Below are positions 328-31,152 of a stretch of DNA of 64,000 nucleotides, piece after piece. Each line of letters opens with the position of its first letter. Within the stretch, counting starts at the first letter, position 1. The stretch is from Ulota crispa (taxonomy: Eukaryota > Streptophyta > Bryopsida > Orthotrichales > Orthotrichaceae): positions 13,767,219 through 13,831,218 of the forward strand of contig OY987251.1 of assembly GCA_963920765.1 (NCBI GenBank), read 5' to 3'. The notes beneath the pieces were generated by a model. It saw only the letters and a list, made by a program, of their open reading frames with translations. It did not search any database and had not been told where the DNA came from. The position numbers and the translations under genes were made by a program.

Positions 328-3300
328 CTGTAGAGCTCCAAAGAAGCATGTAGTTGAAAATCATGGTGACGGCGTACGAGCAAAACCAATTGACTAGAGT
401 AGCAACGCTTCCAGCAACGCCCTTTACGTGAGCAGGGAAAATCTGTACATTAAAACAATCACGAAGTATTCAAATTAGATTAAAAAAAAGGAGCAAGAGA
501 ACTCTAGTTGCTTTGCAATTCATTGGAACTCCAAAGTTTTGCTACATGAAGAGATCAAGGAAAAGAGCTCTCACCTCGGACATAATGATCCATGGAATAG
601 CACCTAACCCCAACGAGAATGTTGCAATATAAACCTGCACAAAAGAGGACAAAGGAAAAAGCAATTTACCAACACCCCCAATATATTTTAGAACTACCCA
701 GCAAAAAAATGAGCAAAACGTTGCCCAAGCTCAAAGATTAAGCCCAGTAAAGTTATTTCCGTTGTTTTACAAAACTTAATTGAGATTAGTATTATTGTTT
801 GTGTTGTTGCCTTTAGTTTAGAAGCAAAATTGAAACATACCAAAAGGCTGATAAGTGCCAGCTCAGAAATGAAGGTGTTCAATGCCTCTGACATCTTCTC
901 TGGTTGCAAAGTCTGTAGCAAATGAACATACCATATTATACATATAAACTTTGTAAAACTTGGGAGAGAAAAAAGTACAAAATTTGACAAGGAAACAGAA
1001 ATAAAATCAAAATTCGAAAGGAGAAGTTCAAGCTGACCCGTAAGTAGAAGGAAAATCCCACAAGGAAGCAGCTGAGGGCCATGCCTCCTGCAGATATCTG
1101 CAAGCAGGCGCTTGTGTGTCAAAGGCATGGAAACTTTAAAAGCACAAAATTATGGTTTTTCTTCTAAATTTGTTGAAGTACAAAGGCTCCCATTAGATAA
1201 ACAAACTTCATAAATGTTACTTTAGTTGAAAGGTGTGCAAACAAACTTCGGTTAGAAACGCAATTTTTTAAAATTTGGTGTTAAATACCATGAGCAAAAT
1301 GCGCCTTCCTGCTTTGTCCATCAGTCCAGCTGCAGCAAGAGTCATAAAGACCTACAAAAACGTAACTAGACAAGTAACATCAAAATTCTAGCATTCGCCT
1401 TACCTATGGTAAAAGTTGAACTGACCTATAATATATTATCAGTAACACAATTTCCATGACAAATAAAGTTAAATATGGTAGTGAAAACACCAATTATTCC
1501 TATATTAGGTTAGAAACTTCAGCAAAAAGAGAATCTCAGTAGTAAAAGGCTTAGTACCTGTAGAGTACCCAAAGCAATAGAGGCTATGTCGGGATTTGAA
1601 ACACCTGCAGTTAAAAGTCCATGGAATTTGAGTTAATTTAGACAGCATAATTATTAATCATTATTTTCAAGTTTTTGAGAATCAAGCTAAAGTATTGAGA
1701 TACATTGAAATTTGCACCAAAGCAAAACATGTCAACATGAAAGTTTAGTTAAATGATTTCTTACTTTCATGGATTGCACACAACAAAAGTTGAAATTATG
1801 AAAAATCTTTGGCATTTAAAACGTACCAGCTGTGGAAAAGATTGAATTGGAGTACAGCATGACCGCGTTGATGCCAGAGAACTGCTGAAGAACCATCAAA
1901 CCTATTCCAGCCTTGTCATATAAAAACACGTCGCTTAATGTCAGCAAAAAATTAGAAGAATATTGGCAGGGTTTAGGTTTAAATTGCCAAAAATGGCTAT
2001 TACAACTAACAAAAAAAATGGCATTATAGTTGGTAAGTCTAACATAAATAAATGTTTTTGGAACACTTCTTTGTGATTCACAATATGTCTCCCGTCCCAA
2101 AACCCTCTAAGATCTCATCTCAGAATATGACTGATTGCTAGCTGAAAATGAGGATCTAGCAATTCACACTAGATCACAAGTCCCAAGTCCTAGTTCACTT
2201 AAAATGCCGCAATTTTTGGAAAATTTAGCACCAAGAAGGTGAGACTTTGCTCAAGAGTTGGGCGCAACAAAAATGGAGACCAAACTTCAAAAAAAGTCCC
2301 ACCACCAATACTTTTGGTTTAAAATATTCAAGGCTTCCCGTGGTATTTCTTTTTGCCCTTATAATCCAACAAAGTTGAGATCTTGCATTGATTTGGGGTT
2401 TGCAAAGTTGGAACATAGTGTAAACTTGATGGGGGTTTGGAGAGGTTTTCTTGCTTAACCCCTAAATGCCCAAGGCACCCAATTTGGGTGTTTGCAAAAC
2501 TTTGAAGATGAATAAAATCTTACCAAATCACTATTTTTGGTATTTTCTTTTGAACACAAATTTGTTTTGAAGTCTATTTTCAATATCAAAAATCTGATTT
2601 TGAAAATGAATCTTCATGATTTTTCTATTCAAGATTTTGTACAAGGGTGTCCACTGCAATCTTGAGTTTTCTAGTGTTGGAAGATCTTGAAAATGAGCCT
2701 CAAATACACTAGAGCTTGGAGAAAAATCCGCATTAGAAATCCATTTAAAAAAAGTATAGGAGTAGATTTTGAAAGCTGTAAATTGGTTGAGGTTAAACAT
2801 GTAGTGACCTTCAACTTCATATTTTTTTTGATAACCAACTTTTTAGATTTGACATGTGAAATGAGGATTAGAAAACTTAAAGTCACTTTTGCAGTTTTAA
2901 CACCTTCATGTTCAAATGTTATAATCTTTCAAACTGTAAGTGATATTGTTGTGTTTTCTTGTTCCATGTAATCTTTAACATGTCAAGTTTAAATTTGTAC
3001 AGTTACAATTTAAAAAAACGTGATGAGATTTATGAAAAGGTTGGTTGATTGTTCAGTTTCCGGAAAATGCCAAGAAGTTTAGAAAGGCCTTGGGCATTTA
3101 GGGGTTAAGTGAGTAGATAGGTTTAGAATTAAAGCAGTAGGCATGGTCAGACCAAAAAACTCACAACAAGTGGGCGGAAAAGTTTTCGTTGCTTCAGATC
3201 GCTCAACTTGACACTGGGCTGAGCACTTGAGGCTTCCATAGCCGCCTGCATTGGAAAAAAATCCATAAGGAATTTTGAATTAAATTTTGCAAAAAGAGTA

Positions 3301-6300
3301 AAGGAAAAGAATAGATAAAGCTATGAAATGCAAAAAAAATCGTACCTGAATGTCTGCAATCTCATTGGCAATGTTAAAATCTATGCCTCGCAGCTTTTGC
3401 AAACATGAAGAAAGCTCCTCTTTTTTTCCTGCCCTGGCCTGTTCACATAAGGAGCCACTTTTGTGAGCCACTTTTGTAAGCTTCAAATGCATCCAAATCC
3501 ATGACTTTTAAGTGAAAAAAAAAGACACTTTTGGTGGGTTGTAAATATGATTCTCATGGTTCGAGGGTAGTCTAGACTTGTTATTTGAAATCCTACTACT
3601 TCAAAGCTTCAAAAACTCAGAACTCACTCATATACTGTCCAAATACTGCATACTTAAGGTTGTTGAAACCGTCTTATAAAAGGAAAAAAACATCTACAGC
3701 AATTTTATACATCCTAATAATGGAAACCACTCAAAACAACTGAAAACCACAGATATGGGATCAAGCCAGCAGTGAACTGCTTTCAATAACAATAACAGAC
3801 GCAAGAGTTGCAAAAGGGTAACACAACATACCAACCATCGAGGGCTTTCAGGAACAAAGAGAAGTCCAACAATTAATGCAATCCCTGGTGCAACACCTGC
3901 CAAATTAATCAAAGTCAATACACAGGTATTTAAAATGCTTAACATTAAGCCCCATATGCCGAATACCAAAGGTACATAAACGTGCCCCTTAATCCTTTTC
4001 AAAGTCATTCTCTGTTCAATGAAAAGCTTCTAGAAAGGTGCAGTAGATATTGATAACCCTTGAAAATGCAAAGGAAAGTCACCTCTCAAAAGATGTTAGT
4101 GGTTTCTCAAATGGGTAATACATTTCAATAACATTAGAACTAACAAAATAAAGGTCATCCAAGAATCCATAATTCTACTATATATCTTTACGGGAAAATT
4201 TCAAGGATACCCCTGAAGTTTGCGATATTTTCATAAATACCCCTGCTTTTTCAGAAATTGCACTACTACCCTTGGACCAAAATTATCAGGCGTTTGTTTG
4301 TTATGCTCATACTTTCTTCATGACCAACGTTGAAGACGGGAATGTAATGAAACAAAAAAGAAGCAACGTCCGCACATACAAAGGAAGAAAGAAGTGGCAT
4401 GCACAACAAAACAAACGCCTGAGAATTTTGGTCCAAAGATATTTGTGCAATTTCTGAAAAAGCAGGGGTATTTATGAAAATATTGCAAACTTCAGGGGTA
4501 TCCATGAAATTTTCTCTATCTTTACTTACTATGCATATTTGCTATACTTAGATTCTGTACTCTGAACATTTGTGATGAGGAAAGACTTAAAAAATCCTGT
4601 TATGCCATGTTGATAACGTCACAATAATAGCCTTACCAAAACCCAAGGAAGAAGGTACTTTTGGTGACTCTCAGAGTGAAATGCTTTACAAATGTCTGAA
4701 GGTTTTTGAAGTGGTTTACAGATATCTGAAGGTGTTCAACTTTGCCTGCAGGAGAATTCCGGAAAACCATGTGTGATATCTCCTTTTTTAAAATAAAAAC
4801 TTCAAAGAGTTAAAAAAATTCATATATTATGGCACGTGTAAGTTTCTGCCCGAAGGCCTCAAACATTTAGAATCAATCTTAGGTCTAAAAAAGAGTCTTT
4901 TCAAGCTTCATTTACTAAAAAAACTACCTAACTTTATCAAGAAACAAAAGAATAACCACACCTCATTGCAACATCCCAATTATTTGCACAAACAAGTACA
5001 TAGTATTTATTTTTTCACATTTAAAAACCACTTGAAACATCAGACCTTTTGCTGCTTAAAACTTCAAAAACACTACAAGACTTTTGAGAGCTGAGATCCT
5101 CTTTGATTTGCTAACATAAATATTTGCTCAGTGCTTTAGAGCAATTAACGAGGTGTGGTAAGGTTGAGCAAGTGATTTCTGATACATACCAAGTAAAGCG
5201 AGAAAACGCCAGCTGAAGAACATGCCGAAAATGTATGAAAGGGTGATGCCGATTGTAATGGCAAACTGGTCCATGGTTCAGAGAAAAGACTGCAGTCAGC
5301 CCTGTTAAACCCTAAACCTCACGCAACTGATTTTAAGAGCAAAATCTTAAAATGAACCACCAATTTCATGAAATTAGAAAGGAGCAAGAAATCAGCACCT
5401 GATTCATAGTCCCGAGACCCCCCCTCAAATGCTTGGGTGAGATCTCTCCAATATACATTGGGACCTGATAAGCAAAGAAACAAAATTTTGAACAATTTTA
5501 AAATGCGAGTATTCCAAAATACCAAACACAGGCTGCAATGACTATACAGAAAATAGAAAAAACATTCCAGTGTGACAATTCTATGGCAGTAAGAAAAAAA
5601 CTGCAACAATAGAAGGGTTGAGAAACTTACAGTAAAAGAAATGATGCCTCCCCCAAAACCAATAAGGACCCTTGCAATAATCAAAGGAGTCGCAGTCTGC
5701 AAGTACATAACCCTCTTGTAAACATGTTTTCCTTTGATTTGTGGTATATAACTACCATCTAGCAAAATTCAGATTTCAAGCTTAGAGCAAATATTTCCAT
5801 AACAGATAACAGAATTTTTACTACACAAACTGACATCTCTTTAGAAAACAGATAAATGAAGATTTAACCCTTACAAAAATTGTTTAGGGTTTATTGCAAG
5901 TTCATGTTACAGATAGCTTGATACTAATTATTAAAGCTGCACTAAGAAAGCTCGTCAGTGGAAAATCCACCAAGTAAAAATAGATTTTTGGGCAGCTAAA
6001 GTTACCTTGCCCAATACAATGAGACTCCACCCTGCTAGCACAGGGATAACAGCCAGCAATAGTGCCTGTTGATTCAGCATAAAGAACACGGTTTTAGGTA
6101 ATTTAAATATACCAGTCCAGCTGAATGAATCTAACCAGCAATCCAAGCACACTTTTTTAAGAAAAATAAGCAGATTTTTTCAAGGTTTTCATACATAATT
6201 TGACTCAGTTTAAGATGCGAGCTCTGTAATTGCACATTCCCTGCATATAAGAGTGCATTTAGAAAACTTACTCGCCTCCGTCCAACAGAGTCAGCTAAGC

Positions 6301-11269: not shown

Positions 11270-13872
11270 CTTAATACTTTAGATTGATTCTCACCAACTT
11301 GAAGAAAATGATTAAGAACTATGTTGTTTGAATTAATCCACATTCCATGGACTTTTGAATGAAGGTGTTTCAAATCCTAACATAGCCTCTGTTGCTTTGG
11401 GTACTCTACACTGTAGAGTTTAAATTGTTGGCAAATGAGTGCTAAGTTGTCCACTCAATATTGAAGGATTTCCAGAGGGAAGGGAAAGCAATGAATGAAT
11501 TTTGTCAAAATTTGCCAGCAATTTAAACCTTGCATTACAAGTACTAAGCCTATTCTTGCTAAGATCCTCTTTTTGCTAAAGTATCTAACATAACATAAAA
11601 ATAATGAGTGTTTTCCCTATTTGATGTTTCTTTGTTTGTCATGGAAATTATGTCATTGAAAATATATTATTGGTTGATTCAACTCTAACCACCAATAACG
11701 CGGATGCTAGACTTTTGATGTTACTTGCATGATTACCTTTTTGCAAGTCTTTATGACTCTTGTTGGAGCTGGACTGATGGACAAAGCAAGAAGGCGTATT
11801 TTGCTCATGGTAATTGGACACTAAATTCATAAACATTGCGTTTGTAACCGAAGTTTGTGTTCACACAAACTCAAATGAATTCATATTGAGAAAGTTTGTT
11901 AATTTAATGGGTGTCATTATACTTCAAGAACTTTAGAAGAAAAACTAAAATTTTGTGCCTTTGGAGTTTCCTTGCCCTTGACACACAAACACTTGCTTGC
12001 GTACATCTGCAGGAGGCATGGCCCTTGGAGGCATGACCCTCAAAGGCATGGTCCCGTCAGTTGCTTCTTTGTGGGATTTTCCTTCTACTTACGGGTTAGC
12101 TTGAACTTTCTCTTCCTTTCCAATCTTAATTTATTTCAGTTTCCTTGTCAAATTTTCTATCTTTTTTTTCCCTAAGTTTTACAAAGTTTTTATGTATAAT
12201 ATGGTATATGTTCATTTGCTACAAACTTTGCAACCAGAGAAGATGTCAGAGGCATTGTACGCCTTCATTTCTGAGCTAGCACTTATTAGCCTTCTGGTAT
12301 GCTTCAATTTTGCTTCTAAACTAGAGGCAACTATACAAATAATAATACCAAACTCAATTGAGTTTTTGTAAAAATAATAGAAATAACTATATTGGGCTTA
12401 GGCAAAGATTTGCTCTATTCTTTGCCAAGTTAATTCTAAAATATATTGGGGGTGTTGGTAAATTGCTCTTTTCTTTGTTCTTCTCTTTTGTGCAGGTTTA
12501 TATTGCAACATTCTTGTTGGGGTTAGGTGCCATTCCATGGATCATCATGTCTGAGGTGAGAGCTCTTTTCCTTGATCTCTTCATGTAGCAAAACTTTGGA
12601 GTTTTAATGAATTGCAAAGCAGCTAGAGGTCTCTTGCTTTTTTTTTTTTTTAATCTGATTTGAATACATTGTCAATGTTTTAATGCATAGATATTCCCTA
12701 CACTTGTAAAGGGTGTTGTTGGAAGTGTTGCTACTTTGGTCAATTGGTTTTGCTCGTACCCTGTCACTATGATTTTCAACTACATGCTCCTTTAGAGCTC
12801 TATAGGTAAAAAAATCAGATCCAAACCTAAGAAAACATGCTTAGTAACCTAACTATAGTTGTCTTGCCATGAATCTTTAAAATCTCCACTTTTCTAGATA
12901 AGGTAAAGAAACATAGCAAACAATATATATACATACACATATATATGCTTTTTTTTCCTTGTCTTATCCCATGAGGAGAAACCATGGTTGTCTACCTTGA
13001 TAGGCACAAAACGACATTGAACACATCTAATGGACTTGTCTATCTAGTTAATGACACCTTTAACCTCTTAAAAAGCTACCGTACACAAAGGATTTTAAGG
13101 ATTTAAATACAACAAGACTACCACATGGCATTTCTTAACGCACATACACATTGCAAAAGTATTAGGGAATGAAGGATTGTGTCTATGCAAGTATAAGCTT
13201 AGCATTTGGAGTTTCAAGTTTAGGATTTAGTGCCTAAACTTGATAGCTGCAACACTTGCTGTCTAATGACAACCCCAGGTTTAGACTAAGCACTTATTTG
13301 AATGAGATGTTAATAGTAAAAATTACCATGCCTAATATAATTGCAATTCAAATGTAGAAATAATGGCATCTTAACCTTTAAACATCTCATAGGCATAGTA
13401 AATACGTTGCCATATAATTGGCATTTGATGTCAACTTGAGACCTTAAATAGCTCTCTAGAATTGCATTGGTCTAACTTCTTTGTTAATCTCAAATGTAAT
13501 TAAGGTGTGGATCCATTTCAAACAGAACAAAAATACCATATATTGTATTGGTTGCAAAGGGTCTTTCAGATAATTAAGGGTTAAAGGCACCTAAAGGTGA
13601 TTCTTGCAATATTTTTGCTTATTAAGAATTTTACCAAGGAAAACATGGAAAGATATACAAAAATTATACTTTTTTGCTTAAGGTAGAAGGCTAGCACTTG
13701 CAATTAACCACTTTTTTTTTATAAATTTGTGGAGTTGTGGGAAACTTTGGTATGTGCAGGTTCTTTTTGGATATTTGCAGCCAAATGTGTAGGCACAGTA
13801 GTGTTTGTTGCAATGTTTGTACCGGAGACTCGTGGCTGCACACTTGAACAAATTGAAGCTTCTTTCAAGTGA
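11270..13872 (+). pseudogene. Inverted partial copy of the ERD6-like transporter (exons 12-18)
   Basis: The plus strand here matches the reverse complement of the first ~1.7 kb of the window, introns included, so it arose by DNA duplication and not through an mRNA. Exon equivalents lie at about 11365-11411, 11747-11810, 11999-12050, 12225-12297, 12497-12556, 12691-12805 and 13760-13872. Damage is plain: the exon-13 equivalent has one extra base (64 against 63), the acceptors before the exon 12, 13 and 14 equivalents have lost their AG, and the exon-17 equivalent has TGG changed to TAG at 12793-12795. The last exon is intact and ends ...LEQIEASFK-stop; its counterpart in the main gene lies outside the window. 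Exons 1-11 are absent. Confidence 0.85.
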
Positions 13873-15167
13873 GAAATAAAACTCTTCACACAATACTTTG
13901 CTCTACCAATCCGGTTGCTGCTAAGGCTGGAGCCCTTTTCGAGGAGAAAGAAAGAGAGAGAAGCAAAAAGCAGTCTGAAGTTTCATATAAATACTTTTTT
14001 GTTTTTTGCAATGGGATTTGCTTTCGATTACTTCGACACGACTCCTTTCTTCATTCTTTATTTTGACGTTGCCGAGGTTTAAAAAAATTCTTTGGCTCTT
14101 GCTCTGTGAGCCCTTTGTTTCTAGCTTTATTTTATTTTATTTTATTGTTAGTTTTATCAATTTTCTTTAGTTTTAGATAGACTTGAACCAATCCTTGTTT
14201 AGCTGGAATGCCTCTGGAAGGTTGGATGTAGTTGCTGAGTGTACAACTTTTAGCTTGATCAATATAAAGTAGCCAATCAAATGTGTGGATGTTTTGTGTT
14301 GCACAGGGGTTTTTGTCTATACCAAGTGTAGTTTGGTGTCTCTTTTTGGGGAAAGATATTTTTACAACAATGTAGATAGAATTTTGGGCATTAAACAAGT
14401 TTGGCTATTAGTTGTTTCTTGAATAAGTAAGTTTAGCAAATTGTTAGGGAACTTGCTTTTGGTAAGCTAGACTGTGCATTGCCTATTGGACTTGACCTAA
14501 GCTTATTTATATGATGCAATGTGCTCACACTATCATACTTTGTCATGCCACAAGAAGTTGCATATAAATGTTTTGAAGGATGAAGAGTATATAGTTTTAC
14601 AGTGCTAAGTGCCAAGCCGGGAGAATTGGTGTGTATTGTGTAATGGCAACAACTTATCATTTGCAAGCGATCGATTCGTAGGGCCAAGTGGAAGAAGTAA
14701 AAATTTGTATGTGGAAGTGGCATTCAAATCATCAGAGAGAGAATTTCACCCAAAGAAGCCTCTACTTTTGTTGTGCAAATTTTACTTGGGTAAGGGTTGC
14801 TTTTTACAATTAGGTTGCCTTCCCTTGGAAAGTCACCTCATACCTCATTGCTTGTGCACTTGGAGGTGCATGCAACTATCTACATAGTACTATTCAAATG
14901 GTTTCCAACTTGAATGCTACTAGTTAGTTTTTTTTTTGCAGCTCCATTGTTGTTGCCAGGCCCTTTGAAATTTGTATAGTACAACAACTATCGATGAAGA
15001 TAATCGTAGTATCAATAAGTATCTGCATAGTGTAAATGTCCAGAGTAAGTATTTACATACTGTAGAATGTCAAGAAATTAGAGTGGGGCAACTTAAACGC
15101 TACAATCAGCTGTAGAGTAAAGTAGTATGTTAAGGAATGCTCACGGTACCTAAGCACACATTTCAGT
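13873..15167. other. Intergenic between pseudogene and kinase gene
   Basis: The first part should be former 3' flank of the transporter copy. Short open frames on both strands have no recognisable features. The right end must include the 3' untranslated region of the minus-strand kinase gene. No repeat termini were found. Confidence 0.5.
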
Positions 15168-17651
15168 TCAGGCTAACGTCCGAAGTGCTTGTTGAATCTT
15201 TTCCAGTTCGGTACAAATGCTTGCAAATGTGGGTCTCTTCTCCGGTTTCTCATCCCAGCAATCCGCAATGAGCTGCTTGAGCTCTGGCAGGAGCTCCGTC
15301 GGCAGCTCCGGTCTAGCCCCAGCAATCACCGCATTGATCCCAGGAGACCCCGCACCCGCAAATGGAACCTTTCCGGTCAAAATCTCGAAGCACGTCATCG
15401 CAAAACTATAAACATCCGCAGCCTTGGGATCAATGGGCTGCTTCGACCACAACTCCGGAGCTCGCCAAAACCCAGTGCCCACCATAAGCGACATAGCCTT
15501 GTCGCTAGAGTCAATCAGCTCCGACACACCGAAGTCCGAAATCTTCACGTCAATGGAACCAGGATGCTTTGGCATCAACACGTTGCGCGCCTTCAAGTCT
15601 CTGTGAACCACGTCCTTGGAGTGCAGGTACGCCATTCCCGAGGCAATTTTGTTGATGATGTACACAGCGTCTTGGATTTCAAACGGCAGTCTCCTTTGCT
15701 GCATTCTCTTGTCGATCTCCTGTCGCAAATCAGCGCCCATGAGTTCCATCACAATCACGCACTGCCCGTTTGCTGACACCGACAAACCCATCAACCGCAC
15801 CACGGCAGGATGGCGAAGCTCAATCAGGAACTTCAGCTCGTTTTTGAGGATTCGCATCGTTGATTTGTACCTGAATGCTTTCGCAGCAAACTTGCAGCCG
15901 ATCCATGTGGCTTCGTACACCTCCGCAGTGGCGCCTCTGCCAAGGAGAACGCCTTGCTTCAAGTCAGCGCGGGCGATGCTCACGAACTCCGGCAACGTTG
16001 TGCCCGCGTCTTCGGTTTCTTCGTGACTCTCCGTGTCTATACCTTCGACATCGTTGAACCCCCATGCGGGAGTTGGAGGATCAGTCGTTGCTGTTGAACC
16101 TCCGAAGAGGCGACTGAGTACAGGGATCAGCTTAAAAAGCTTCAGGACGGTGGTTATGCCGGAGGAAATGCTCGTGACGGCGGGTTGTGCTAGAGGCTGT
16201 GAAGACCTGATGAAGTCGAGTGTGTGGTTGATCAGTTCAAAAGTCGGCCGTTTTTGTGGATCACGCTCCCAGCAAGCTTCAATGAGTCCTCTCAAGTTCT
16301 CGTCCAACTCGCTCGGTAGGTTTTGCCGCAGGTCCCCTGTTGCAATCCGTGTCGTGAGAGCGTCACCTTGTGTGTCTTGGAAGGGCAAATGTCCTGTGAG
16401 TATTTCGTAACAGACCATTCCGAAACTGTAGATGTCGATTTTCTTCAACAAAGCATCTGAAGGTGCAGGCTCGACTTCAGTGTATTTCGAAACCTCTGGT
16501 GCCGCCCATCGCGGTCTGCACCTCACGCTGCGCTCCTTGAACACCGCAGGGTCCCAAACGCCGAGGTTCTGGCAGCTTCGGAGATCGGAGACTTTGACAT
16601 CGATGTGGTCGCCGGGAAACTGCTTGATAAGAATGTTAGAGCACTTTAACTCGCCGTGCACGTATTGTTGTTCGTGTAAGTAATGCATGCCCCTTGCTAT
16701 CTGGGTGATAATCTCCAGTTCTTGAGTACGTGAAAACGGCCTTTTCTTACTTTGTCGTGATTTCATGAAGTGGCGTAGATCAGTGCCCATTAACTCCATG
16801 AGGATCAAGCATTTCTCCTCGTCTTGGGCGAAGCCCATGAGCTGGACGATGTGAGGATGGTGGAGTTTCGTGAGAGCTTGGGCTTCTTTCAGCAACTCGC
16901 CTCGGTTCCAAGTTTTGTCACCGGACTGGAACACCTTGACAGCACACTCGCAACCAAGCCACTTCCCGAAACGTACAAGCGCCCAACCATCGGTCTCCAC
17001 TGGATCGTGTCTGCTCAACCGCTCTGGACGCCGCACGGGCTTCCGTACTTCAACAAGCGATGGATCGATTTTGAGAAAGCTTGGCAAGGCGTTGTCACTT
17101 ATGACCTCACTCTTCTCAGACACCACCAGCTTCACTTGTTCCAGATCTGTGGGAGCCGCTTGCTGATCCTCAGCCAGTGCGTCCAAACTCTTCGAAAGCT
17201 CCTTCAAATCCTGGGCTGCGTCCTCTGTCAACATAGCGTTTCGCTCGCTTTCGGAGGTGGAAGATTTGGAGTCTTCGAGAAAGAACTGCGCACGCATTGC
17301 GTCTAAATCCATGTGAACCTCTTTGAATGCTTCGCGATCCTCTGTCCGGATGAGCACACTGGGAATACTGGCTGCCACTGTTACGTATTTCGACACCAGA
17401 GCCTTCGCTCTTTGTAAAACGGAGAGAAGCATGTCAAAAGCAGGATGATCCACCTTTCCTGCTGCTGATGTGTTGTCGCCTACCAATTCTATCTTTGGCA
17501 ACGCCTCACCGATGGCGTTCACACGATCGGCCAGGCGATGGCACTGGTGCTTGTTCACGACACAGTTACTGGACTTTTCTTTGATATCTTCGATGACTCT
17601 TAACGCTTCGGAGAATTGCGAAATAGGCTCCATCGCCTCCGCAGACTCCAT
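15168..17651 (-). CDS. MLKL-NTD-like/pseudokinase/kinase tandem protein, 827 aa, single exon
   Basis: An intact intronless frame starting MESAEAMEPI. Residues about 10-175 are helical and charged and resemble the N-terminal four-helix-bundle (HeLo/MLKL_NTD) fold by pattern: a QC-RLADRV helix and a KEVHMDLDAM helix. Residues about 222-482 form a protein-kinase fold with beta-3 Lys239 and an AAPE motif, but the glycine-rich loop is missing, HRD is HGE (332-334) and DFG is DLR (356-358), so it is very likely a pseudokinase. Residues about 562-822 form a second kinase with everything needed: GRGATAEV (571-578), Lys591, Glu605, HRDLKARN (683-690), DFG (706-708), APE (731-733), and a sequence of Raf-like/TKL type. 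The linker has a hydrophobic-basic segment (499-518) that could be an amphipathic helix. Known family facts: tandem kinase proteins act in plant immunity and MLKL-type bundles insert in membranes during cell death. A role in immune or stress signalling is an inference. Confidence 0.9.
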   Translation of the reverse strand: MESAEAMEPISQFSEALRVIEDIKEKSSNCVVNKHQCHRLADRVNAIGEALPKIELVGDNTSAAGKVDHPAFDMLLSVLQRAKALVSKYVTVAASIPSVLIRTEDREAFKEVHMDLDAMRAQFFLEDSKSSTSESERNAMLTEDAAQDLKELSKSLDALAEDQQAAPTDLEQVKLVVSEKSEVISDNALPSFLKIDPSLVEVRKPVRRPERLSRHDPVETDGWALVRFGKWLGCECAVKVFQSGDKTWNRGELLKEAQALTKLHHPHIVQLMGFAQDEEKCLILMELMGTDLRHFMKSRQSKKRPFSRTQELEIITQIARGMHYLHEQQYVHGELKCSNILIKQFPGDHIDVKVSDLRSCQNLGVWDPAVFKERSVRCRPRWAAPEVSKYTEVEPAPSDALLKKIDIYSFGMVCYEILTGHLPFQDTQGDALTTRIATGDLRQNLPSELDENLRGLIEACWERDPQKRPTFELINHTLDFIRSSQPLAQPAVTSISSGITTVLKLFKLIPVLSRLFGGSTATTDPPTPAWGFNDVEGIDTESHEETEDAGTTLPEFVSIARADLKQGVLLGRGATAEVYEATWIGCKFAAKAFRYKSTMRILKNELKFLIELRHPAVVRLMGLSVSANGQCVIVMELMGADLRQEIDKRMQQRRLPFEIQDAVYIINKIASGMAYLHSKDVVHRDLKARNVLMPKHPGSIDVKISDFGVSELIDSSDKAMSLMVGTGFWRAPELWSKQPIDPKAADVYSFAMTCFEILTGKVPFAGAGSPGINAVIAGARPELPTELLPELKQLIADCWDEKPEKRPTFASICTELEKIQQALRTLA

Positions 17652-18949
17652 AGCCTCGAATGACCTCTTATCTGCGTCAAGACCTTCTCACCTCAGCTTC
17701 ACTGTCTAAACTACGTACTCCATGTTCAAAAATTGAGGATAAGAAATGGCTACAGTCACGGTAATTGAGAGCCAAAAAAGAAGCAACACACGACCACTAA
17801 AACTTACACCAGGAATGAATTGAAAGTGCAATTCAACCCTAAATACTGAGACAGGATATCCAGGGAATCGTACCAGCCATTGTCAAAACCTCAGTGAGCG
17901 CCACAATGATGTCCGTGAAACTTATTCGAGCTGCCTGTGTGGCGCATGTTACAAACAAGGTGAGTAATGGAAGAGGATTTATAGATATCAGCTGCAATCC
18001 CGAAATTTTCAGCTTCAAAAGCATAAGAAAGTCAGAGCTTCTAGAAAGATCCAGAAAGGCACGCCAACAATCCTTGAAGCTGGCTATGTCTAAAAGCCAA
18101 GAAAACTTGCAACAATTTAACGAAACGCACAGCATAGGCACAACATAGGCACAACGTGTACACGAGATGGAAGTCAATTCTAAGAAAACGAAGTTTTAGG
18201 GACAAAATTGATTCAAAAACTGTTACCGACAGTGACCACACCAGAAACTCGTTTATTCGTACGATTGATTTCACAGGACTTGGCTAAACATCGTGATAAA
18301 AGTTCAAGCTCAGTAAGATCGGCTATTGCACCCTTAAATGTCTCCACAGCTCTGTACCGACATATTCACAAATGCTTACCGACAGTGACTAAGTTGTACA
18401 CTCACCTTATTCAAGCTTGGAGCGCTTCTCTCCTACAACCTCCAGGGCAATCTCCAAAACGGTCGGCGAGATCTGGAGTTTAAACCTTCAGTTGTGTGCA
18501 GCTGAAATACACCGAAGCGTTAATTAGCGCCGGTGATGACGAGCTCTAGTGCAAAAACCAACAGAATCTAGAACTCCCGAGTCCCAAGAATCTCCTACAA
18601 CGAAGCCATATCCGTTGTTGCGATCCGAGACGTTACTCTCACATTCTGCCGTAAAGCTCAAACACAAAGACGACATGCAAACGCAAGCGACCTTAAATCT
18701 CCATCGCCGCGCACATAGCGCGCTTGTTGTTGTCTGACTGTACTACTGTTCAGTCCAAATTGTCTGTACAAAAAGAAACTTCGGCACCACTTCTCGTTTC
18801 TCTAATCTCCATCTCTCAGTCATTTCTAATCTCCATCTCTCCATCTCTTCGTCATTTGCAGTATGTGCTGCACTGTATCAAAATAAAATCTATCTTGCAA
18901 AAGGACTTCGACAAATGGCCGACCCTGACATGCTACAGTAATTGTGAAA
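17652..18949. other. Upstream region of the tandem kinase; no gene seen
   Basis: Mixed-composition sequence holding the promoter and 5' leader of the minus-strand kinase gene. Open frames of 60-110 codons exist on both strands without recognisable domains. A motif close to TTACCGACAGTGACYA occurs twice (about 18,221-18,236 and 18,377-18,392). Confidence 0.45.
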
Positions 18950-19365
18950 TTTTTATAGGGACCGACTAGGTGGACACTCCCCAATTGCTACGCGGACACC
19001 CCATAGCCAAATTTATTAAATTTGAGATTATTATTATGTTGAAATATGAAGTAAATCAAAGCAATACTTTAGCATACATCTATATTTACAAATGTTGTAA
19101 ATACACAACAAGTTTGCCTCATTTGTGACAAGATTAGGAGTTAAACTAGTTACTCCTTTCATTTATTGGCTTGACTCTTGACCATGTCACAAATGAGACA
19201 AATTTATTGTATGTTCAGAGCGCTTGTAAACTTAAATATATGCTAAACTATTGCTTTGATTTTATTTCATATTTCATCATAATAATAATCTCAAATCTAA
19301 TAAATTTAGCTATGGGGTGTCCGCGTAGCAATTGGGGGGCGTCCACCTAGTCAGTCCTTTTTATA
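18950..19365. mobile_element. hAT-like foldback MITE with 8-bp target duplication
   Basis: An exact 8-bp direct duplication TTTTTATA (18950-18957 and 19358-19365) flanks a 400-bp element (18958-19357). Its inverted termini are long: ACCGACTAGGTGGAC near the left end pairs with GTCCACCTAGTCAGT near the right, and pairing continues through the GCTACGCGGACACCCCATAGC region and beyond, about 140 bp per arm. The 8-bp duplication suggests the hAT class. No coding capacity. Confidence 0.72.
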
Positions 19366-20314: not shown

Positions 20315-20720
20315 GTTGATCACCCTTTTTCAACTATTCTACCACACTTGCTATATATGGCTGATATTTATAATATTAAAGTAGGTGTGTACCACGCGCA
20401 AAAACATCACTAATTTGAAAATACCACTTAATATAGAAGTTGCAACTCTGATGTTGTTTTTCAATTCCAAATCCCACTCATAGTATCAATTAAAAAATCT
20501 AAATTATGTTTAATTGAATTTATGCTCTTTTAAATTGATACTATAAGCGGGATTAAGAGCTGCAAAACAAAAACAAAACTGCATCTTCTATTTCAAATTG
20601 TATTTTCAAATTAGTGATGTTTTCCCCATGATAGTCTACACCTATTTTAATATTGTATATATTGACCATATATAATGGGGTGTGGTAGAATAGTCAAGAA
20701 GAGGTGGTACATGTATCAAC
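20315..20720. repeat. Foldback element of about 406 bp
   Basis: The two halves are inverted copies centred near 20,505: ACTATTCTACCACAC and TATATATGG on the left pair with GTGTGGTAGAATAGT and CCATATATA on the right. The pairing continues through the CATCACTAATTTGAAAATAC region. The outer ends read GTTGAT and ATCAAC. No clear target duplication was found, so the transposon class is open. Confidence 0.6.
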
Positions 20721-22879: not shown

Positions 22880-23255
22880 TACATACAAATATATTTTAAA
22901 ATGAATCATGTTGTTTTTGATATAGTCACTATATGGATTTGAAATGTCCTCTTTGTAATGTCTTGGTAGTAGGTTTAAAGAGGCATAAGCTTTGTAAATG
23001 AATTTGTTGGTTAAAGTAGATAAGGGATGCCTGCTTTAAAAGAAGCATCATTAGTGGGATTACAATCTTTCAATGAAACCTCGTTAGTAGGTTTAGAGAA
23101 GTGTTATAAAGGTATGAATCTTAAACCATTTTTTTCCATCTTTCTCATTTCCTCCACCTCTCCTCCTCCTGAGCTTCCTTCTTTTTGCATGTTTTACTTT
23201 TTAGCATTGCTTTTAGAGTGCAATTAGTTTGCAACCTGCTCTTTTCTTTTTTGCT

Positions 23256-25367
23256 TTGGCACATGGAGTAGCCATACCTGCAAGAGTGATCAAACACTAC
23301 CCTGGTCAAACTACTTACTTTTTGTATCTAATGTGCGTACTTGCAGCTTCCGATGGTCTCATGTTTGGTTATGATATTGGCATTTTAGGTACTCCCCATG
23401 TCCTCTCTATACTCTATTCCCTCATTCTTTGCTTTCTATTTGTATGAAAAGATGTAATTTGCGTTTGCTTTTGATCACCCAGCTGCTACCCTTTCATGTT
23501 CCATGTTCATATTCTACTTGCTTTTTTATAACTTGCACAAAAAATCTTCCCAAAAACACTTGCATTTGAAAGCTTTTTCTGCTTGCTTGCAATTTGTGCT
23601 TTTCTGTGGATTTGCTGGGTGTAAGTTAATTTTTAACTTGAATTTCTGTTGTGAGTGCAAGTGGGGTGACGTCCATGGACAAGTTCCTGGGCGAGTTCTT
23701 CTCGGCGGTGCTCAAGAAGAACCGCCACGCCGGCGCCGACAACGACGCGTATTGCAAGTACAACGATCAGAGGCTGCAGGCGTTCACAAGCTCGCTCTAC
23801 ATCATAGCGCTCGTCGCCTCGCTGCTTGCCTCCCACACCACACGCCACCATGGCCGCAAGGCCACCATGCTCGTCGCCGGCCTCACCTTCTGCCTCGCGC
23901 TCATGGCGTCTGCGCAGAAGCTCGCCATGCTCATCGTGGGCCGCATCCTGCTCGGCTGGGGCGTCGGCTTCGCCAACCAGGCCGTCCCCCTCTACCTCTC
24001 TGAGATGGCCCTCGCCGCCTGGCGCGGCGCACTCAACATCCTCTTCCAGCTCGCTGTCACCATCGGCATCCTCTTTGCCAACCTCGTCAACTACGGCACA
24101 GAGAAGATGTCGTCCGACGGCTAGCGCGTATCGTTGGCCATCGCGAGGGCGCCCGCGCTGCTCATCACCCTTGGCGGCATCATCCTCCCCGACACGCCCA
24201 ACTCGCTGGTGCAACGTGGCAAGCTAGACGCGAGGCGACGGATGCTGCAGCGCAACCACGACGTGGACGACGTGGACCGCGAGTTCCAGGACATCATGGC
24301 AGCCAACGCGGAGGCGGCGTCCGTTGAGGGGATGTTGTTCCGGAACGTGGTCAGGTGGCGCAACCGGCCGCAGCTAGTGATTGCCATGCTGCTGCAGGTG
24401 TTCCAGCAGTTCACGGGCATCAACGCCATCATGTTCTACGCGCCGGTGCTGTTCCAAACGGTGGGGTTTGGGAGCTCGGCGGCGCTGTACTCGTCGATGA
24501 TCGTGGGCGCGGTGAACGTGCTGTCCACGGTGGTGGCCGTGGTGGCGGTGGACCGCGTGGGGCGGCGCTGGCTACTCCTGGAGGCGTGCATGCAGATGTT
24601 TGTGGCGTAGATACGGATGGGATCCACTCTGTCGCCCTTGCTAAGTAGCACATATGCAGTCACCTCCAATTAGTCCTCCTTTTGCTTGCAACGCAATGCA
24701 ATGCAATGCAAGACCAGTCCCTAGTGGAGCTGTTGCGGCTGTCGTCATGTTGATTTACATCTCTGCTGCATACCAATGCGGTCAATGATTCAGGGTCCGT
24801 GGCCGTGGTGGCTTGGCTAATTCATCAGCTTGTCTTGCTTCTTTCGTTATGTGATTATGCATGTGGAGTGGTGACGGTGCAATGATGACTTTGTGCGTGC
24901 TTGTGCAGGTGGCGGTGGGCGTGATTCTGGCGGTGGGGTTGAAGCATGGCACCACTATGCCGGCGGCGCTGGGGTGGGTGGCGGTGGTGCTGATCTGCAT
25001 GTACGTGGCGGCGTTCGCGTGGTCGTGGGGGCCGCTGGGGTGCTTGATTCCGAGCAAGATCTTCCCGCTAGACGCGCGGTCGGCGGGGCAGGCCGTCACC
25101 GTGTCCACCAACATGTTCTTCACGTTCGTGATCGGGCAGGCATTCCTGTCCATGCTGTGCACTCTGCGGTGGGGCGTGTTCCTCTTCTTCGCCGCGTGGG
25201 TGGTGCTCATGATGGCATTCACGTTCTGGTTCATCCTCGAGACCAAGGCCATCCCCATCAAGGACATGGACTTCCTCTGGACGCGTCACTGGTTCTGGAA
25301 GCGTTTTGTTCCGAAGGCGGAGTCGGTGAAGAGCAGCAATTTGGAAATGGGCACGTACAAGTCATAA
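23256..25367 (+). pseudogene. STP-type hexose/H+ symporter pseudogene, left-arm copy
   Basis: Three exon equivalents, 23256-23388, about 23661-24610 and 24909-25367, would encode about 512 residues of an STP-type plasma-membrane hexose carrier. Motifs include GLMFGYDIGI, a PDTPNSLVQRG motif, QQFTGINAIMFYAPVLFQT, DRVGRR and a C-terminal HWFWKRF. It cannot be translated as one protein: the ATG position is TTG, the intron-1 acceptor reads CAAG where CAGG is expected, Trp in the SSDGW motif is TAG (24122-24124), and the CAG codon that ends exon 2 is TAG with the donor GT changed to AT (24608-24612). It also lacks two codons (Gly-Val after FCL) compared with the right-arm copy. Confidence 0.9.
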
Positions 25368-26452
25368 CGCGTCCTGAAGCAGGCCTAGTGAATGTGGCCA
25401 TGCTGTGTGAAGGGATCGATCCCTGGAGCATTCGTATTTGAGCGAGATCCATTGCTGTACATAATTTCTTCATAAACGCTAGCTTGTGAGCATCGAGCTG
25501 TGAAAGCATTCAGGCGTGTTTTGCGTTCCTTGGAATCGTGTCTTGTTTGTTGTGTGCTGGAATGTGTGTGACCTCGTCGTGTGCTAGCGTAAGTTCATAC
25601 CACCTCCGGAAGGGGCAAGCCTTTGGAAATGGAATGGCAGTCCAGTGAATCAGAAATTGTCGTTGCAAATCTATACATTGTGAGTATGTCATCGCTCACA
25701 TCGTTTTTTCATGGCACTTGTCTCCCTCACGATTGTTTTTCGAATGTCAAAGTGGAGAATCCAATCTTCCTGAGTGACTGCTTTTTATACGTTGATTTTC
25801 GTGCGGTGTCCTGAGATCACGGTCCTTCAATCCTTCGAGAAAGTGAATCCCTTTCTGGGCATAGATCTGTGCGCATTGTAAGCTGAGTAAGGCTGTTGTG
25901 GGGAGATCTGAGCAAGTATGGCATGGACTCCTGGCCAGAAAGATCCACTTGTTATCCACAATGATTAGGTCACTTCCAATGAATTCGTCACCTCATTTGA
26001 GAACGAGTACGTACGTAGTATGAAAGTTGAGAAATGGAGAGTTTCAAATCTTGCGGTCAGGACCATTGCTCCACCGTGCACTTCATTTGGTCAGGCACAA
26101 TTTTGGACGTACAACTTTTGCCATGCACTTGAACCTGTAGCTTTGTGTAAGCATGCGACCACCCACACCATTTTGACTGTGGACCCCTCTGTAGAACTTC
26201 AAAGCACCTCCACTTGAGCGAGTGTCTCTTGTAGATTGAGGATAAATCAGTGGAGGATTGGTTATGGGCTTGTGGTGACTCTGAGTACAATCATGTGGTG
26301 ACTCTGAGTACAATCATGTGGTGAATCTGAGTACATGTGGTGACTCTGAGTACAATAGAACTCTAAATTGATATGGTTGGGATTCCAAGAACTAGATTTA
26401 GTTTAAGTAAGTTATTAGTTAATTTTGTGGAAGTGAAATGAAGTGACTTTGA
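25368..26452. other. Downstream of the STP pseudogene; no gene seen
   Basis: Matches the right arm (about 42,400-43,190) in patches, for example CACCTCCACTTGAGC and CAATTTTGGACGTAC. Contains a short tandem repeat at 26,270-26,351. No coding frame of note. Confidence 0.55.
26270..26351. repeat. Short tandem repeat, unit about 25 bp, four copies
   Basis: The unit GTGGTGACTCTGAGTACAAT is repeated four times with small changes (one GTGGTGAATCTGAG variant, one shorter spacer). It lies within the left arm and is not seen in the right arm. Confidence 0.75.
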
Positions 26453-27514
26453 GGTTAGTGCAGGGCACCTTAAAAGTGGTAATTTATGTATATTTATCAC
26501 TTTTATCACTTTTAAGTTGGGTGGTATACCACTTTTAAGTCTTTGGATGATAATGGGGAATGCTAAATCATGAGCGGGAATACATGAGTTGTGAGCCATG
26601 AACCTAGATTTATAACCAAAATATTAGATTTCACCTATAAACGTGTACATAGGTCATTGTAATTGTGCTTTATAAACATCCATCTCTTGAAAAACTTACT
26701 TTTAAAAAAAAATATTAATTTTGAGCTCACAATTGGTGTTAGCTCACAAAATCTTGGCTCACCACTCATGGGCTCATTGTTTTACGCTCATAAAATAGCG
26801 TCGTTTGGATGGATATATTCACCATTTGTGTATGGGGTTCACCGCTTCTTTGCGGGTAATTTCCTTTCCACCATATCCCACTTCTTTGCCAATTATTTTA
26901 GTCCAAGATGACATTTGCCAATTGGCCTTGTGTCGGATTTTGCCTAGCCATGCTCTCCAGCTTACGTGGATCACTACAAGAAAACGATGCTTGAATTGAC
27001 ACATTCAAATTGACTAACTGTGTTTGAAGTGACATTAAAATCTTCAAAGTGACAAAAGGATGTCCAAGTTGACAACTTTCCTTTCTAGTGTCACAAAGTC
27101 ATGCACACACCATACTTGGAGGGCAATGGTTTTGCTATTATGTTTGACAATTACAACTACAAGACTACATTTGAGGCTGGTTGGAAGCTTGTCAATTAGC
27201 AATTTGAATCTTGCTTGATTGGAAAGGAAGGTGTTACCACACTATTCTCAAATACTACATTTGTGGAGTTTGATTTTTCCATTTTTGGATAGGAGAAAGA
27301 CATATATTGCAAGTCCATCACCAATTTGTTTTTGAAAAATGATTTGCAATCAAAAATATTTTCACTTTTGAATCAAATAAGCTTGTGGGCACTAATACAA
27401 ATGATTAAATGATTAAAAGTGGTTATAAACACTTTTAACTCTTACCAATTACCACTTTTAAGCTAATTGTGGATAAAAGTAGATTTACCACTTTTAAGGT
27501 GGCCTAGGTTAGTG
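26453..27514. mobile_element. hAT non-autonomous element, 1,046 bp
   Basis: An exact 8-bp target duplication GGTTAGTG (26453-26460 and 27507-27514) flanks 26461-27506. Termini are CAGGGCACCTTAAAAGTGG on the left and, inward from the right, TAGGCCACCTTAAAAGTGG. A (C/T)AGG start with an 8-bp duplication is characteristic of hAT. Both ends contain several ACTTTTAA/TTAAAAGT subterminal copies, as expected for transposase binding sites. No transposase. It is absent from the right arm. Confidence 0.8.
26972..27110. mobile_element. Possible CACTA-type terminus inside the hAT element
   Basis: CACTACAAGAAAAC at 26972 matches the usual start of CACTA (En/Spm) elements, and is followed by repeated short motifs of the form (A/G)A(A/G)TTGACA or AAGTGACA, like subterminal repeats. 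No opposite end was found, so this may be a solo terminus or chance. Confidence 0.35.
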
Positions 27515-27855
27515 TTGGGATAGCACCAAGGAGCATTACTACTATTGAATTAATTGCTTTGGTTTATGACTCACGTATGGTCTTACATTGAGATTTGTGT
27601 TGCATATTAGTTTACAAAGGATATCAATTTACAAGCATTTCTTATATGTTTTCACTAAATTTTACAAGTACATATCATGTTTGTTGGACCTCTCATGATC
27701 AGTACTTCATAGTTTGTGATGATATCAGCTCCTCATTATTTGAGTTTTTGTGCTAATGACACATGCATTCTAGAATCAATCTACCATCTGAAAATGTACG
27801 CAAAATCTCCAGCTTTAATGTTGCCGTTTGGGCACTCAAATGCCATGCAAAAAGT

Positions 27856-27968
27856 ACTACATTTGTGCATGCTGCCAGCTCCTTATTATTGATGGTGTAG
27901 CAACAATGATACCTACATTTGTGCATGCTGCCAGCTCCTTATTATTGATGGTGTAGCAACAATGATAC
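27856..27968. repeat. Exact 56-bp tandem duplication
   Basis: Two consecutive copies of a 56-bp unit beginning CTACATTTGTGCATGCTGCC and ending CAACAATGATAC show no visible differences, so the duplication is recent. The surrounding region to about 28,140 has no gene. Confidence 0.85.
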
Positions 27969-28139
27969 CTCATATGGGCGCAGTGGAATGCTCTCTAATC
28001 GCTTAACTTGCCCCCATGAGATCATTGAGCATGGCAAACGCTTTCTTAGCGTTTGAAATCAACAAAAGGGAGCTTTTTAGTAGTACAAAAAATATGTCTG
28101 GCTTGGAGCTTTTTAGAGGGACAGCGGGAGTACTAAATT

Positions 28140-30560
28140 TTGAACAACATCAGATTGCCAAGTAACTGAGAGTGAGAAGGGTCTGAGTTAAGAATTGATC
28201 TTTCCGACCCAACTCTAAAAATGTTGCAAGTCCATCTTGAGCGAAGGACGCCAGCTCCCGACAGCAAAATAGCAGACGCTGGCAGAAAACACTAAGTAAA
28301 TCCCCTCAAAACGCTTCCAATTTCGACAAGGTAAAAGGCGCTCCGAGGCAGGCAAATGACCGTCGTAATCTCAAACAACTTCTCAAAAGATCCCCACATA
28401 CTGCTGGTAATGTCACGAAAGTACCGACTGCTTCTCCTTTCGATTTGTACTTTCAGATTTTCGAGCTGAAGGAGCTGCTACACAGCCCCACCAGCTCAGT
28501 GCAGATATTCGACCAAAAGTAGCCAGTTCACAGCTAATCTGCTTAGAAATGCGATGCTGTTCAACAATAGAAGCTTACGACATAATCCAGATTTATGTCT
28601 AGATGCCCGATATAGACCTCAAGCTTCCTCTTGGACCACGGATGAAAGCACAAGGTTTCCATTCCGTACTTCCGGATCGAGGGTGAAAGCGGCCAGGACA
28701 CAGCCGTTTCCTGTTCTTCCGTCCTTGGCAACGCCCCTAACAGGGCATCACCATGCAAGCGGAGCCCAAAGCCCTCCATCCTCTCCTTAACACCACGTCC
28801 ATTTGAACAAAACAAGACCGCAACAAAACGTCAACACAAATTGGATTCGTCAAGAACGCCTCAGCCTCACACTTGCACAATACTTGCTGCTAAACATCAC
28901 ATCGCACATTCCCAACTCCAGATGGACTTCAGGTGGCCTACCACAAGTACTCGGAGAAACCTCCATCGTCAAAGCCAACGAACAAAGCATTCATGCTACT
29001 ACTCCACACAGAACATACGCTCCACACCCCACACCGCCATGCCATCTCGTTTCATCCACCACCCTCGGCCTTCTACACAAGCAACCTACTTCCACTCCAA
29101 CAAAAATGCCCAAAGCACAGATGCAGGACGCCTTTAACCAATCCCACTCTACTTCACCGCCCACCCTCCTGCACACCAGACCGAACCACGTATGCCACCA
29201 ACCACACAACCCTCAAATCATTCCAGCCCTCCAGAAACCAACCCCTTCGCCAGACACGATCATGGACGTAGCAAAATTAATCATGCATCTGTTCCATAAC
29301 ACTCCAGTATCACATTCCCTTTCATGCTCTCAGCCTTCCCGTGTCCACACAGTCATGTCGACGAAATAGTGTGTATTAACCAGGAAAAACGGAACAGTGC
29401 TTCTCACCGCCACAACGCTACACGTTGCAGCACAGCCCACTACTGTCGACCGCAACCCCGTCCTCGGTCTCTTCTCACCAGCATGTCCACGCATCCTGCA
29501 ACGCCACGCAGACACCTCATGTCAGATGCACCATCCAACCTCGCTTCCGTTCCAGCGATGTCCGAAACATCAGACGCACCAGAACCAACCATACTCCGGC
29601 CTCCTTAGCATCATGGCCCACTTCCATCCGGCTCATGCCGTCATCCACGCACCCCAGCGATACCCACATATCCCAACGGTCACCGCATGCTATCACCGAC
29701 ACTACACCGGGATACAAGAATCAGGCCTCGGCGCCACCTTCCATCTACCCCACAAATGCGCTCCTTTCACCCACCAAAAATCAAGCGGGACATCAGCTTC
29801 TCATCAAACACCCCTCCCAGTCCATCAAACCCAAAAACTCAAACCTCACCCAACCGAACACGCCACTGAAATCAAACCCTAAACCTGTGCGTGCCTACAC
29901 CTACTCCATCTGCCATCTCAACCGTCCACCACCCTCACCGACACTTCTCACATGCTACTGCAACCTTTCCATCCTTTGCCCGCGCATTCCGAAAACCCTC
30001 ATGCACGCCTCGCTCCACTGCCAAACCTCCGCTTCCAACCGCTGGCTTTTCCCAACCGCTCGCGCAATGCCAGAACCCTACAGTGACGATACTTGAACCC
30101 CGCCAGGCATCACCTATGACCTAAATCGACCGCACTATGCACCGTGCAGAAACCCTAAAACTAACCCAGTGCCACCACTGCAAAGAATGCGTGCAATTCC
30201 CACCCTACCGACTCCACGTCAACCACACCCTTCCACATACAACGCACCAACTCCGCGATGACACGAATTCTACCCACGAATTCAAATGCCACACTAGATG
30301 CCATCCTCGACTCATCCATGCGTCGTCATCCAGGCCGCCCATTTGCCCCTCGCCCCTTATCTCTCCCACCCTATTCCCATATTTTCCACGACTTCACTCC
30401 CGCTTCCCCTAGTCCACCACTAATCCGTCACCGCATTCGCAATTACGTGCCCTAAATTCCTCGCCTCGAGAACGAAAAAACATAAAAAAACAAAACCACG
30501 CCACCATAGCCAAGCCCCCTGCTGCTGCTACTCACCAGCTCCTCCTCCGCCGCCGACCTT
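28140..30560. other. Strand-skewed block downstream of left-arm eL14
   Basis: The plus strand is rich in C and A (CCAACC, CACACC, CATCCA words) over about 2 kb, the counterpart being G/T-rich on the eL14 sense strand. Open frames up to 223 codons on the plus strand are Pro/Thr/Ser/His-rich and not conserved in frame with the right arm, so they are treated as composition artefacts. It could be a long 3' transcribed region of eL14. Confidence 0.5.
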
Positions 30561-31122: not shown

Positions 31123-31152
31123 TTCCAGGTCCTAGCCCAGGTCCCCAAAAAA

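Follow-up and report, generated by a model that had tools for sequence, protein, structure and literature searches.

A putative MLKL-type protein with a pseudokinase-kinase tandem in the moss Ulota crispa

Results

In a 64,000-nucleotide stretch of the genome of the moss Ulota crispa (GenBank assembly GCA_963920765.1, contig OY987251.1, positions 13,767,219 to 13,831,218 of the forward strand; this whole stretch is called the window below), a single intron-free gene encodes an 827-residue protein in which an N-terminal domain of apparent MLKL type is followed by a pseudokinase (K1) and by a second, probably catalytic kinase domain (K2). The explanation that we favour, tentatively and with a little less than even confidence, is that an ancient duplication of the C-terminal kinase in a plant MLKL-type protein gave rise to K1, a conserved pseudokinase, and to K2, which stayed catalytic, making the protein a putative executor that carries its own activating kinase. 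The identity of the N-terminus, the motif states of the two kinase domains, the age of the architecture and the constraint on K1 are supported by the analyses below; a death function and an order of activation are what we infer.

The coding frame lies at 15168..17651 on the minus strand, stop codon counted in, and runs from its ATG as one exon. An intact 827-residue protein had been claimed at this place in a preliminary description of the locus; its coordinates were right, and the strand is minus. From stop to stop the frame spans 839 codons, 12 open codons separating the upstream in-frame stop from the ATG, and the plus strand of the same interval is full of stops. When positions 15000-18000 were shuffled base by base 200 times, no open run exceeded 247 codons, compared with 839 in the real sequence. 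The third-position GC of the frame is 0.61, and the overall GC of the window is 0.40. Genome-wide searches were made in the 274.8-Mb assembly of 157 contigs, in which the window lies on the contig here called C10.

Evidence for an MLKL-type N-terminal domain

The preliminary description had likened the N-terminus to the MLKL four-helix bundle and had proposed a profile search as the check. This search returned a match better than a generic coiled coil: the Pfam family MLKL_N (PF22215, curated cut-off 27 bits) was found on residues 21-144 (17220..17591, minus strand) with 35.6 bits and an E value of 7.9e-9 when residues 1-208 were scanned alone, and with 31.8 bits in the full-length protein, while none of four control sequences (one reversed, three shuffled) gave an MLKL_N match. 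In the whole genome, the MLKL_N search reported three places, the best of which was this gene (35.8 bits). A profile built from this N-terminus and four rows from three paralogous loci (A2; five rows, four loci) was compared with the Protein Data Bank (PDB). It found seven distinct sequences, every one labelled MLKL, at E values from 6.8e-5 to 3.5e-4, and the next match had an E value of 0.38. The seven count as one piece of evidence, because they are versions of one protein. In the alignment with the MLKL chain 6d74, profile positions 23-163 correspond to chain residues 15-155, so that the match extends from the bundle into the start of the brace. These results bear out the claimed likeness and support an MLKL-type N-terminus, as judged from sequence.

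An AlphaFold2 model made without an alignment contained helices at residues 8-26, 34-53, 70-95 and 103-123 (17283..17630, minus strand), all of low confidence, and a fifth, likewise of low confidence, at residues 143-161 (17169..17225, minus strand), which from the model and the reach of the A2 alignment falls at the position of the MLKL brace. Similar helices came from another prediction. Structure prediction had also been proposed beforehand as a check on the bundle; five helices stand in plausible places, yet the mean pLDDT was 50.9, and the model weighs neither way.

Other identities for the N-terminus were considered and rejected. DUF6586 (E value 5.6e-4), SPACA9, DUF7792 and RPW8 (E value 0.094) all fell under their Pfam cut-offs. 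The reversed control reached an E value of 2.2e-4 with the unrelated family PF11641, under that family's cut-off, which indicates that sub-cut-off matches near this value can arise by chance; the sub-cut-off Pfam rows of the N-terminus were therefore set aside. Three weak PDB matches to an RNA export factor (E values of 0.17 upward) were taken as chance, and an NCBIfam scan gave 17 rows, none of which reached its own cut-off. DUF1221, the usual domain of plant MLKLs, gave no match in this protein in the Pfam tables up to an E value of 10.

Single-kinase paralogues as a possible sequence bridge between animal and plant MLKLs

The whole-protein search of the genome found at least 62 places, a lower bound that comes from 55 scored candidates among 402; 30 of these 62 were retrieved as loci. 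Apart from the tandem copies described below, the paralogues carry about 200-270 residues ahead of a single kinase. A second profile (A3) was made from the N-termini of 11 such loci (L006, L008, L009, L010, L013, L016, L018, L020, L021, L026 and L029); L007, L011, L012, L014, L015, L017, L019, L023, L024, L025, L027, L028 and L030 did not enter it. Its rows were read from stop to stop; in L009, L016 and L020 the first ATG lies deep inside (residues 162, 61 and 67), and these three rows may include sequence of another exon or non-coding sequence.

Among solved structures, A3 matched the N-terminus of the Arabidopsis MLKL 6lba with an E value of 2.9e-7 and nothing else better than 0.34; a second Arabidopsis MLKL structure, 6ka4, was not among its matches there. 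A2 and A3 matched each other with a probability of 96.8 and an E value of 2.6e-10, whereas two reversed and 40 column-shuffled controls gave probabilities of at most 0.35. Among the matches listed, three of the 11 A3 N-termini resembled DUF1221 weakly, below the cut-off. These rows call for the caution that the reversed control described above imposes on sub-cut-off matches, and the A2-A3 match still stood at 95.5 after the three had been removed. In the whole genome no place exceeded the DUF1221 cut-off of 25, and one place, in a different gene, reached 23.6 bits. A QCxxL motif in the second helix is present in all four A2 rows that cover it and in several A3 rows, and the MLKL chains read KKQCRRL. 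Taken together, the profiles link animal MLKL to an Arabidopsis MLKL in a chain of sequence likeness, by way of this N-terminus and those of its paralogues.

A pseudokinase is followed by a complete kinase

K1 spans residues 218-490 (16182..17000, minus strand) and matches PF07714 with 161.7 bits over residues 209-498. It has no glycine loop and reads HGE for HRD at residues 332-334 (16650..16658, minus strand) and DLR for DFG at residues 356-358 (16578..16586, minus strand). Lys 239, the catalytic-loop Asn, the DFG-type Asp and an APE motif at 384-386 are retained, and because the first three of these are kept, nucleotide binding by K1 may still occur. K2 spans residues 555-827 (15171..15989, minus strand), with 167.7 bits to PF07714 over residues 499-827, and carries the glycine loop GRGATAEV at 571-578 (15918..15941), Lys 591, HRD at 683-685 (15597..15605), DFG at 706-708 (15528..15536) and APE at 731-733, all on the minus strand. 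With this set of motifs K2 is probably a live kinase, and the earlier assignment of a pseudokinase followed by a complete kinase is upheld. BLASTP aligns the two domains at 38% identity, and a local alignment gives 41%.

The best solved matches of K1 are 6lba (111.9 bits) and 6ka4 (110.0 bits), the next scoring 95.6 bits. Labelled 'Protein kinase family protein' and 'F22L4.1 protein' in the PDB, these are structures that we take to be AtMLKL3 and AtMLKL2, respectively. The catalytic loop reads HGD in 6lba and HGE in 6ka4, which suggests that the odd loop of K1 is an MLKL trait and not random decay. For K2, 6lba gave the best single-stretch match (120.6 bits), with human MLK1 next (109.3 bits); only a tandem EGFR chain ranked above 6lba, with two stretches of 64.5 bits each. 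These rankings of nearest solved relatives were drawn from a PDB that holds few plant kinases.

The tandem architecture is old and K1 is the most constrained part

The order of N-terminal domain, K1 and K2 was found at three loci: the window gene, a copy on contig C7 and a copy on contig C9. The C7 copy is 82-85% identical, depending on part and method; its frame changes near residue 150, and its K1 contains a stop. The C9 copy is 39% identical over 776 codons and has two frame changes, with no room for introns there. In addition, C10 carries, 2.7 kb to the left of the window, a fragment that comprises K2 and the linker between the kinases, and a degraded fragment lies on C8. Among these copies and fragments, the window copy is the sole intact one as assembled. 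Against MLKL_N the C7 copy scored 26.8 bits, or 27.1 bits with its neighbours, barely over the cut-off. K1 reads HGE in all three tandem copies; at the DFG position the C7 copy also has DLR, and the C9 copy has DFH. In K2, HRD is kept in the C7 copy.

In a 28-row kinase tree the K1 sequences form one clade (support 100/99) and the K2 sequences another, less firmly supported (93/86). This tree included 14 single-kinase rows; L007, L011, L015, L017, L021, L023, L024, L027, L030 and L034, as well as the 32 places without a fetched locus, were left out. Since the architecture is shared with a C9 copy of 39% identity, and K1s and K2s cluster separately, it appears to be old, and the tandem seems to predate the split of the C9 and C10 copies. 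When all seven K1 and K2 rows were forced into one clade, the arrangement was not rejected (p-AU 0.574, likelihood 1.58 above the free tree, whose search had not come upon this arrangement), and K1 and K2 may have arisen by internal duplication. A smaller tree of seven rows had placed K1 with the Arabidopsis MLKLs (87/89), with a p-AU of 0.099 for the clade of K1 and K2. The idea that K1 is an AtMLKL orthologue and K2 a later fusion was dropped, as the seven-row grouping vanished with 28 rows, where K1 stands among other kinases of the moss genome itself.

In the comparison of the window gene with the C7 copy, the ratio of nonsynonymous to synonymous substitution (dN/dS) was 0.27 for K1, 0.47 for K2, 0.58 for residues 1-165 and 1.09 for the linker. 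The pseudokinase is thus the most constrained part between these recent copies. The ratios are likely inflated because the C7 copy is broken. Against the nearby C10 fragment, dN/dS was 0.55 for K2 and 0.61 for the linker. Silent sites are near saturation in the comparison with the C9 copy, to which K1 is 46% identical, K2 44%, the segment 1-165 30% and the linker 25%.

No relatives were found among viral contigs, and the 11 stretches that fitted the pattern in prokaryote genomes included no true relative. Three observations on other loci of the family are recorded here. At L009, a frame at 853-2529 has a weakly DUF1221-like N-terminus and an HRD kinase, and 175 bases farther on a frame at 2705-3706 carries an HGE kinase-like domain; this is perhaps a kinase-pseudokinase tandem in reverse order. 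L025 has a 645-codon frame at 1441-3375 with two kinase domains (HRD first, HGD second) and no MLKL_N match. L010 (C5:23294670) and L011 (C5:23329178), 34.5 kb apart, agree in match score, frame length and motif positions and point to either duplication in the very recent past or an effect of the assembly.

Linker, basic stretch and the rest of the window

Two further features flank K1. A basic stretch in the interval between brace and K1 covers residues 198-215 (SLVEVRKPVRRPERLSRH; 17007..17060, minus strand). A hydrophobic amphipathic linker covers residues 495-516 (16104..16169, minus strand), and the values of its best window, residues 499-516, were reached in none of 300 shuffles of residues 491-555. 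The preliminary description had seen in it a possible membrane contact. As a sequence feature the linker stands, and it has hardly changed in the recent C7 copy; the membrane contact is weakened, because the linker is unrecognisable in the old C9 copy at the identity given above and evolves at a dN/dS of about 1.1 in the recent pair.

Elsewhere in the window, a large inverted duplication joins 23039-31167 and 38262-45497, at about 83% DNA identity in two blocks. Membership of the MLKL-type gene in this duplication was ruled out, only one copy being present in the window. The duplication contains near-identical genes for ribosomal protein L14e (30564-31118, minus strand, and 38314-38874, plus strand; 99% protein identity). 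The seven best solved matches of the latter scored 179-186 bits, followed by 133.5 bits; the highest-scoring match carries the label wheat germ, and the other six are presumably from plant ribosomes as well. One arm also holds a sugar-transporter frame (44154-44927, minus strand), and a PIH1 gene (36684-37856, plus strand) lies between the arms. A second inverted repeat, 1-1562 and 11536-13130, is 83% identical over 1.6 kb and lies close to the MLKL-type gene and to its fragment left of the window. An exon of an ASF1-like histone chaperone was seen at 48197-48682 on the minus strand. Hairpin-like inverted repeats at 18959-19357, 20401-20623 and 35024-35608, with arms of 92-185 bases that are 78-96% complementary, are possibly small transposons.

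Discussion

In the mechanism that would follow from the favoured explanation, the brace and K1 would keep the N-terminal bundle silent at rest. The trigger could be a cue from a pathogen, or else K1 being bound or modified; K2 would then phosphorylate K1 or the brace, either of its own chain or of a neighbouring molecule. With the bundle freed, the protein would oligomerise at a membrane, perhaps with help from the basic residues 198-215 and the linker helix, and in defence this would lead to ion leak, calcium signalling or cell death. The proposed action of K2 on K1 or the brace is drawn by analogy, because RIPK3 phosphorylates the MLKL pseudokinase and so sends MLKL to the membrane (PMC8816944). 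One chain would unite roles that are split in mammals between RIPK3, the kinase, and MLKL, the pseudokinase and executor.

The plant MLKL family (AtMLKL1-3) provides the best solved relatives of K1 and, by single stretch, in 6lba also that of K2; an HG(E/D) catalytic loop is common to these proteins and K1, and the N-terminus of 6lba is linked to that of the moss protein through the paralogue profile. However, plant MLKLs have one kinase-like domain where this protein has two, lack a catalytic second kinase, and begin with DUF1221 (DUF1221/HeLo followed by a pseudokinase), which was not matched here. The three Arabidopsis MLKLs act redundantly in TNL-mediated resistance (PMC9950082), and in a survey covering 33 organisms of the green lineage, proteins associated with NLRs, a set that includes MLKL, were reported from all species tested, MLKL not being listed species by species (PMC11218826). 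Animal MLKL (4btf, 2msv and 6ux8, among others) likewise has, by profile, the bundle and the start of the brace, followed by a pseudokinase, but its activating kinase RIPK3 is a separate protein, and there is no second kinase in the chain.

Several results weigh against the favoured explanation. Searched as a single sequence against the PDB, the N-terminus yields no MLKL chain, and structure searches with the low-confidence model (Foldseek, VIA) returned generic bundles, with MLKL absent among the 50 matches listed in each. Residues 1-165 have a net charge of -11, unlike a simple lipid-binding basic patch, and residues 166-217 (52 codons) show a dN/dS of 1.59 against the C7 copy; the sole close full-length pair for such ratios contains a broken copy. 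For K2, 6ka4 ranks 29th among solved structures (96.1 bits), which makes its placing with the MLKLs less specific than that of K1. K2 of the C9 copy reads HGD for HRD, and K2 of the C7 copy has GTSASA where the window gene has GRGATA. In the 28-row tree, neither K1 nor K2 forms a group with the Arabidopsis MLKLs that sets them off from the remaining kinases of the genome. In the assembly, both other tandem copies (C7 and C9) have interrupted frames, so genes of this type may be dispensable. Finally, MLKL_N grazes the N-terminus of a U-box/ARM-type protein in the genome search (23.4 bits, sub-cut-off), so a bundle of MLKL type need not kill. That protein (L046 1-1902, minus strand; C10:3099900-3100217) was named by eye from its sequence. 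The MLKL_N match hints that its N-terminal bundle could be remotely related to that of MLKL; A2 and A3 hardly match it (probabilities 3.3 and 14.1).

The main rival, which we regard as a serious possibility though not a probable one, is that the protein is a signalling kinase and not an executor. The bundle would then serve dimerisation, localisation or partner binding, phosphorylation by K2 would be the output, and K1 would be an allosteric regulator or a decoy for effectors, as others have suggested for kinase fusion proteins. The catalytic motifs of K2, the overall acidity of residues 1-165 and the likeness of MLKL_N to a U-box/ARM-type protein are consistent with such a role, as is Pm13, a protein with an MLKL_NTD bundle and a kinase with all key catalytic residues that confers mildew resistance (PMC10951266). 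Grass proteins of the Pm13 type resemble the moss protein in both these respects; Pm13 itself, however, has 476 residues and a single kinase, assigned to LRR_8B by its authors, whereas here a pseudokinase intervenes between bundle and kinase (PMC10951266). The same authors raise the possibility that cell death is triggered by the bundle, call for experiments to settle it, and count 714 MLKL_NTD-kinase proteins in grasses and Arabidopsis (PMC10951266). On the other side, the N-terminal profile finds MLKL alone below an E value of 0.38 among solved proteins. Moreover, K1 and not K2 is the most constrained part and the HRD of K2 is altered in the C9 copy, while a purely catalytic role would not favour either.

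It is improbable that the protein is a cereal-type tandem kinase resistance protein which gained an MLKL bundle by fusion. It does combine a kinase and a pseudokinase in one chain, tandem kinases give rust and mildew resistance, and one Physcomitrella protein appears in a survey of such proteins (PMC6170490). Two kinase domains per chain are also found in Yr15/WTK1 and Sr62, one of them degenerate in WTK1 (PMC6170490, PMC8956640). Those proteins, however, draw on WAK, RLCK_8, Pelle/DLSV and similar kinases, and the kinase-pseudokinase order of WTK1 is the opposite of that seen here (PMC6170490). According to the survey, its 92 tandem kinases are without additional conserved domains, whereas this protein has MLKL_N (PMC6170490). 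Both kinases are nearest to plant MLKLs among solved structures, a comparison that did not directly include the receptor-like WAK and LRR_8B types, which are the most frequent ones in that survey. By descent, the moss protein is probably not a cereal-type tandem kinase. The likeness to tandem kinases drawn in the preliminary description is accordingly one of architecture (two kinase domains, one of them degenerate) rather than of demonstrated kinship, because the nearest solved relatives are plant MLKLs and the two domains possibly arose by internal duplication. Janus kinases, which are receptor-bound and have different N-terminal domains, also carry a pseudokinase ahead of a kinase in one chain, a likeness of order and logic only. 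The comparison of plant tandem kinases with Janus kinases is drawn in PMC6170490 too.

A dying lineage-specific family, of which the window gene would be the last intact copy with no present role, would account for the frame-interrupted C7 and C9 copies and the C10 and C8 fragments, but is improbable given the 839 open codons of the window copy, its third-position GC and the low dN/dS of K1.

Returning to the MLKL-type executor that we favour, a bolder version of it appears rather doubtful: a necrosome in one chain, with K2 a built-in RIPK3 for K1 and the bundle, and with an N-terminus that links animal MLKL and plant DUF1221/HeLo by shared descent and not only by shape. Among the matches listed in a search of open PubMed Central papers, we found no description of an MLKL bundle joined to a pseudokinase and a kinase, and plant databases may well contain the gene without comment. 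The relationship between plant and animal MLKLs has been called not clear, and bdelloid rotifer MLKLs cluster with plant and fungal ones, perhaps through horizontal transfer (PMC11476962), so a sequence link across kingdoms is not wholly new. The profile chain described here bears on this relationship and runs through a plant's own gene family. If K2 does switch on the bundle of its own chain, this gene would be a self-contained death switch, with executor and activator fused in one gene.

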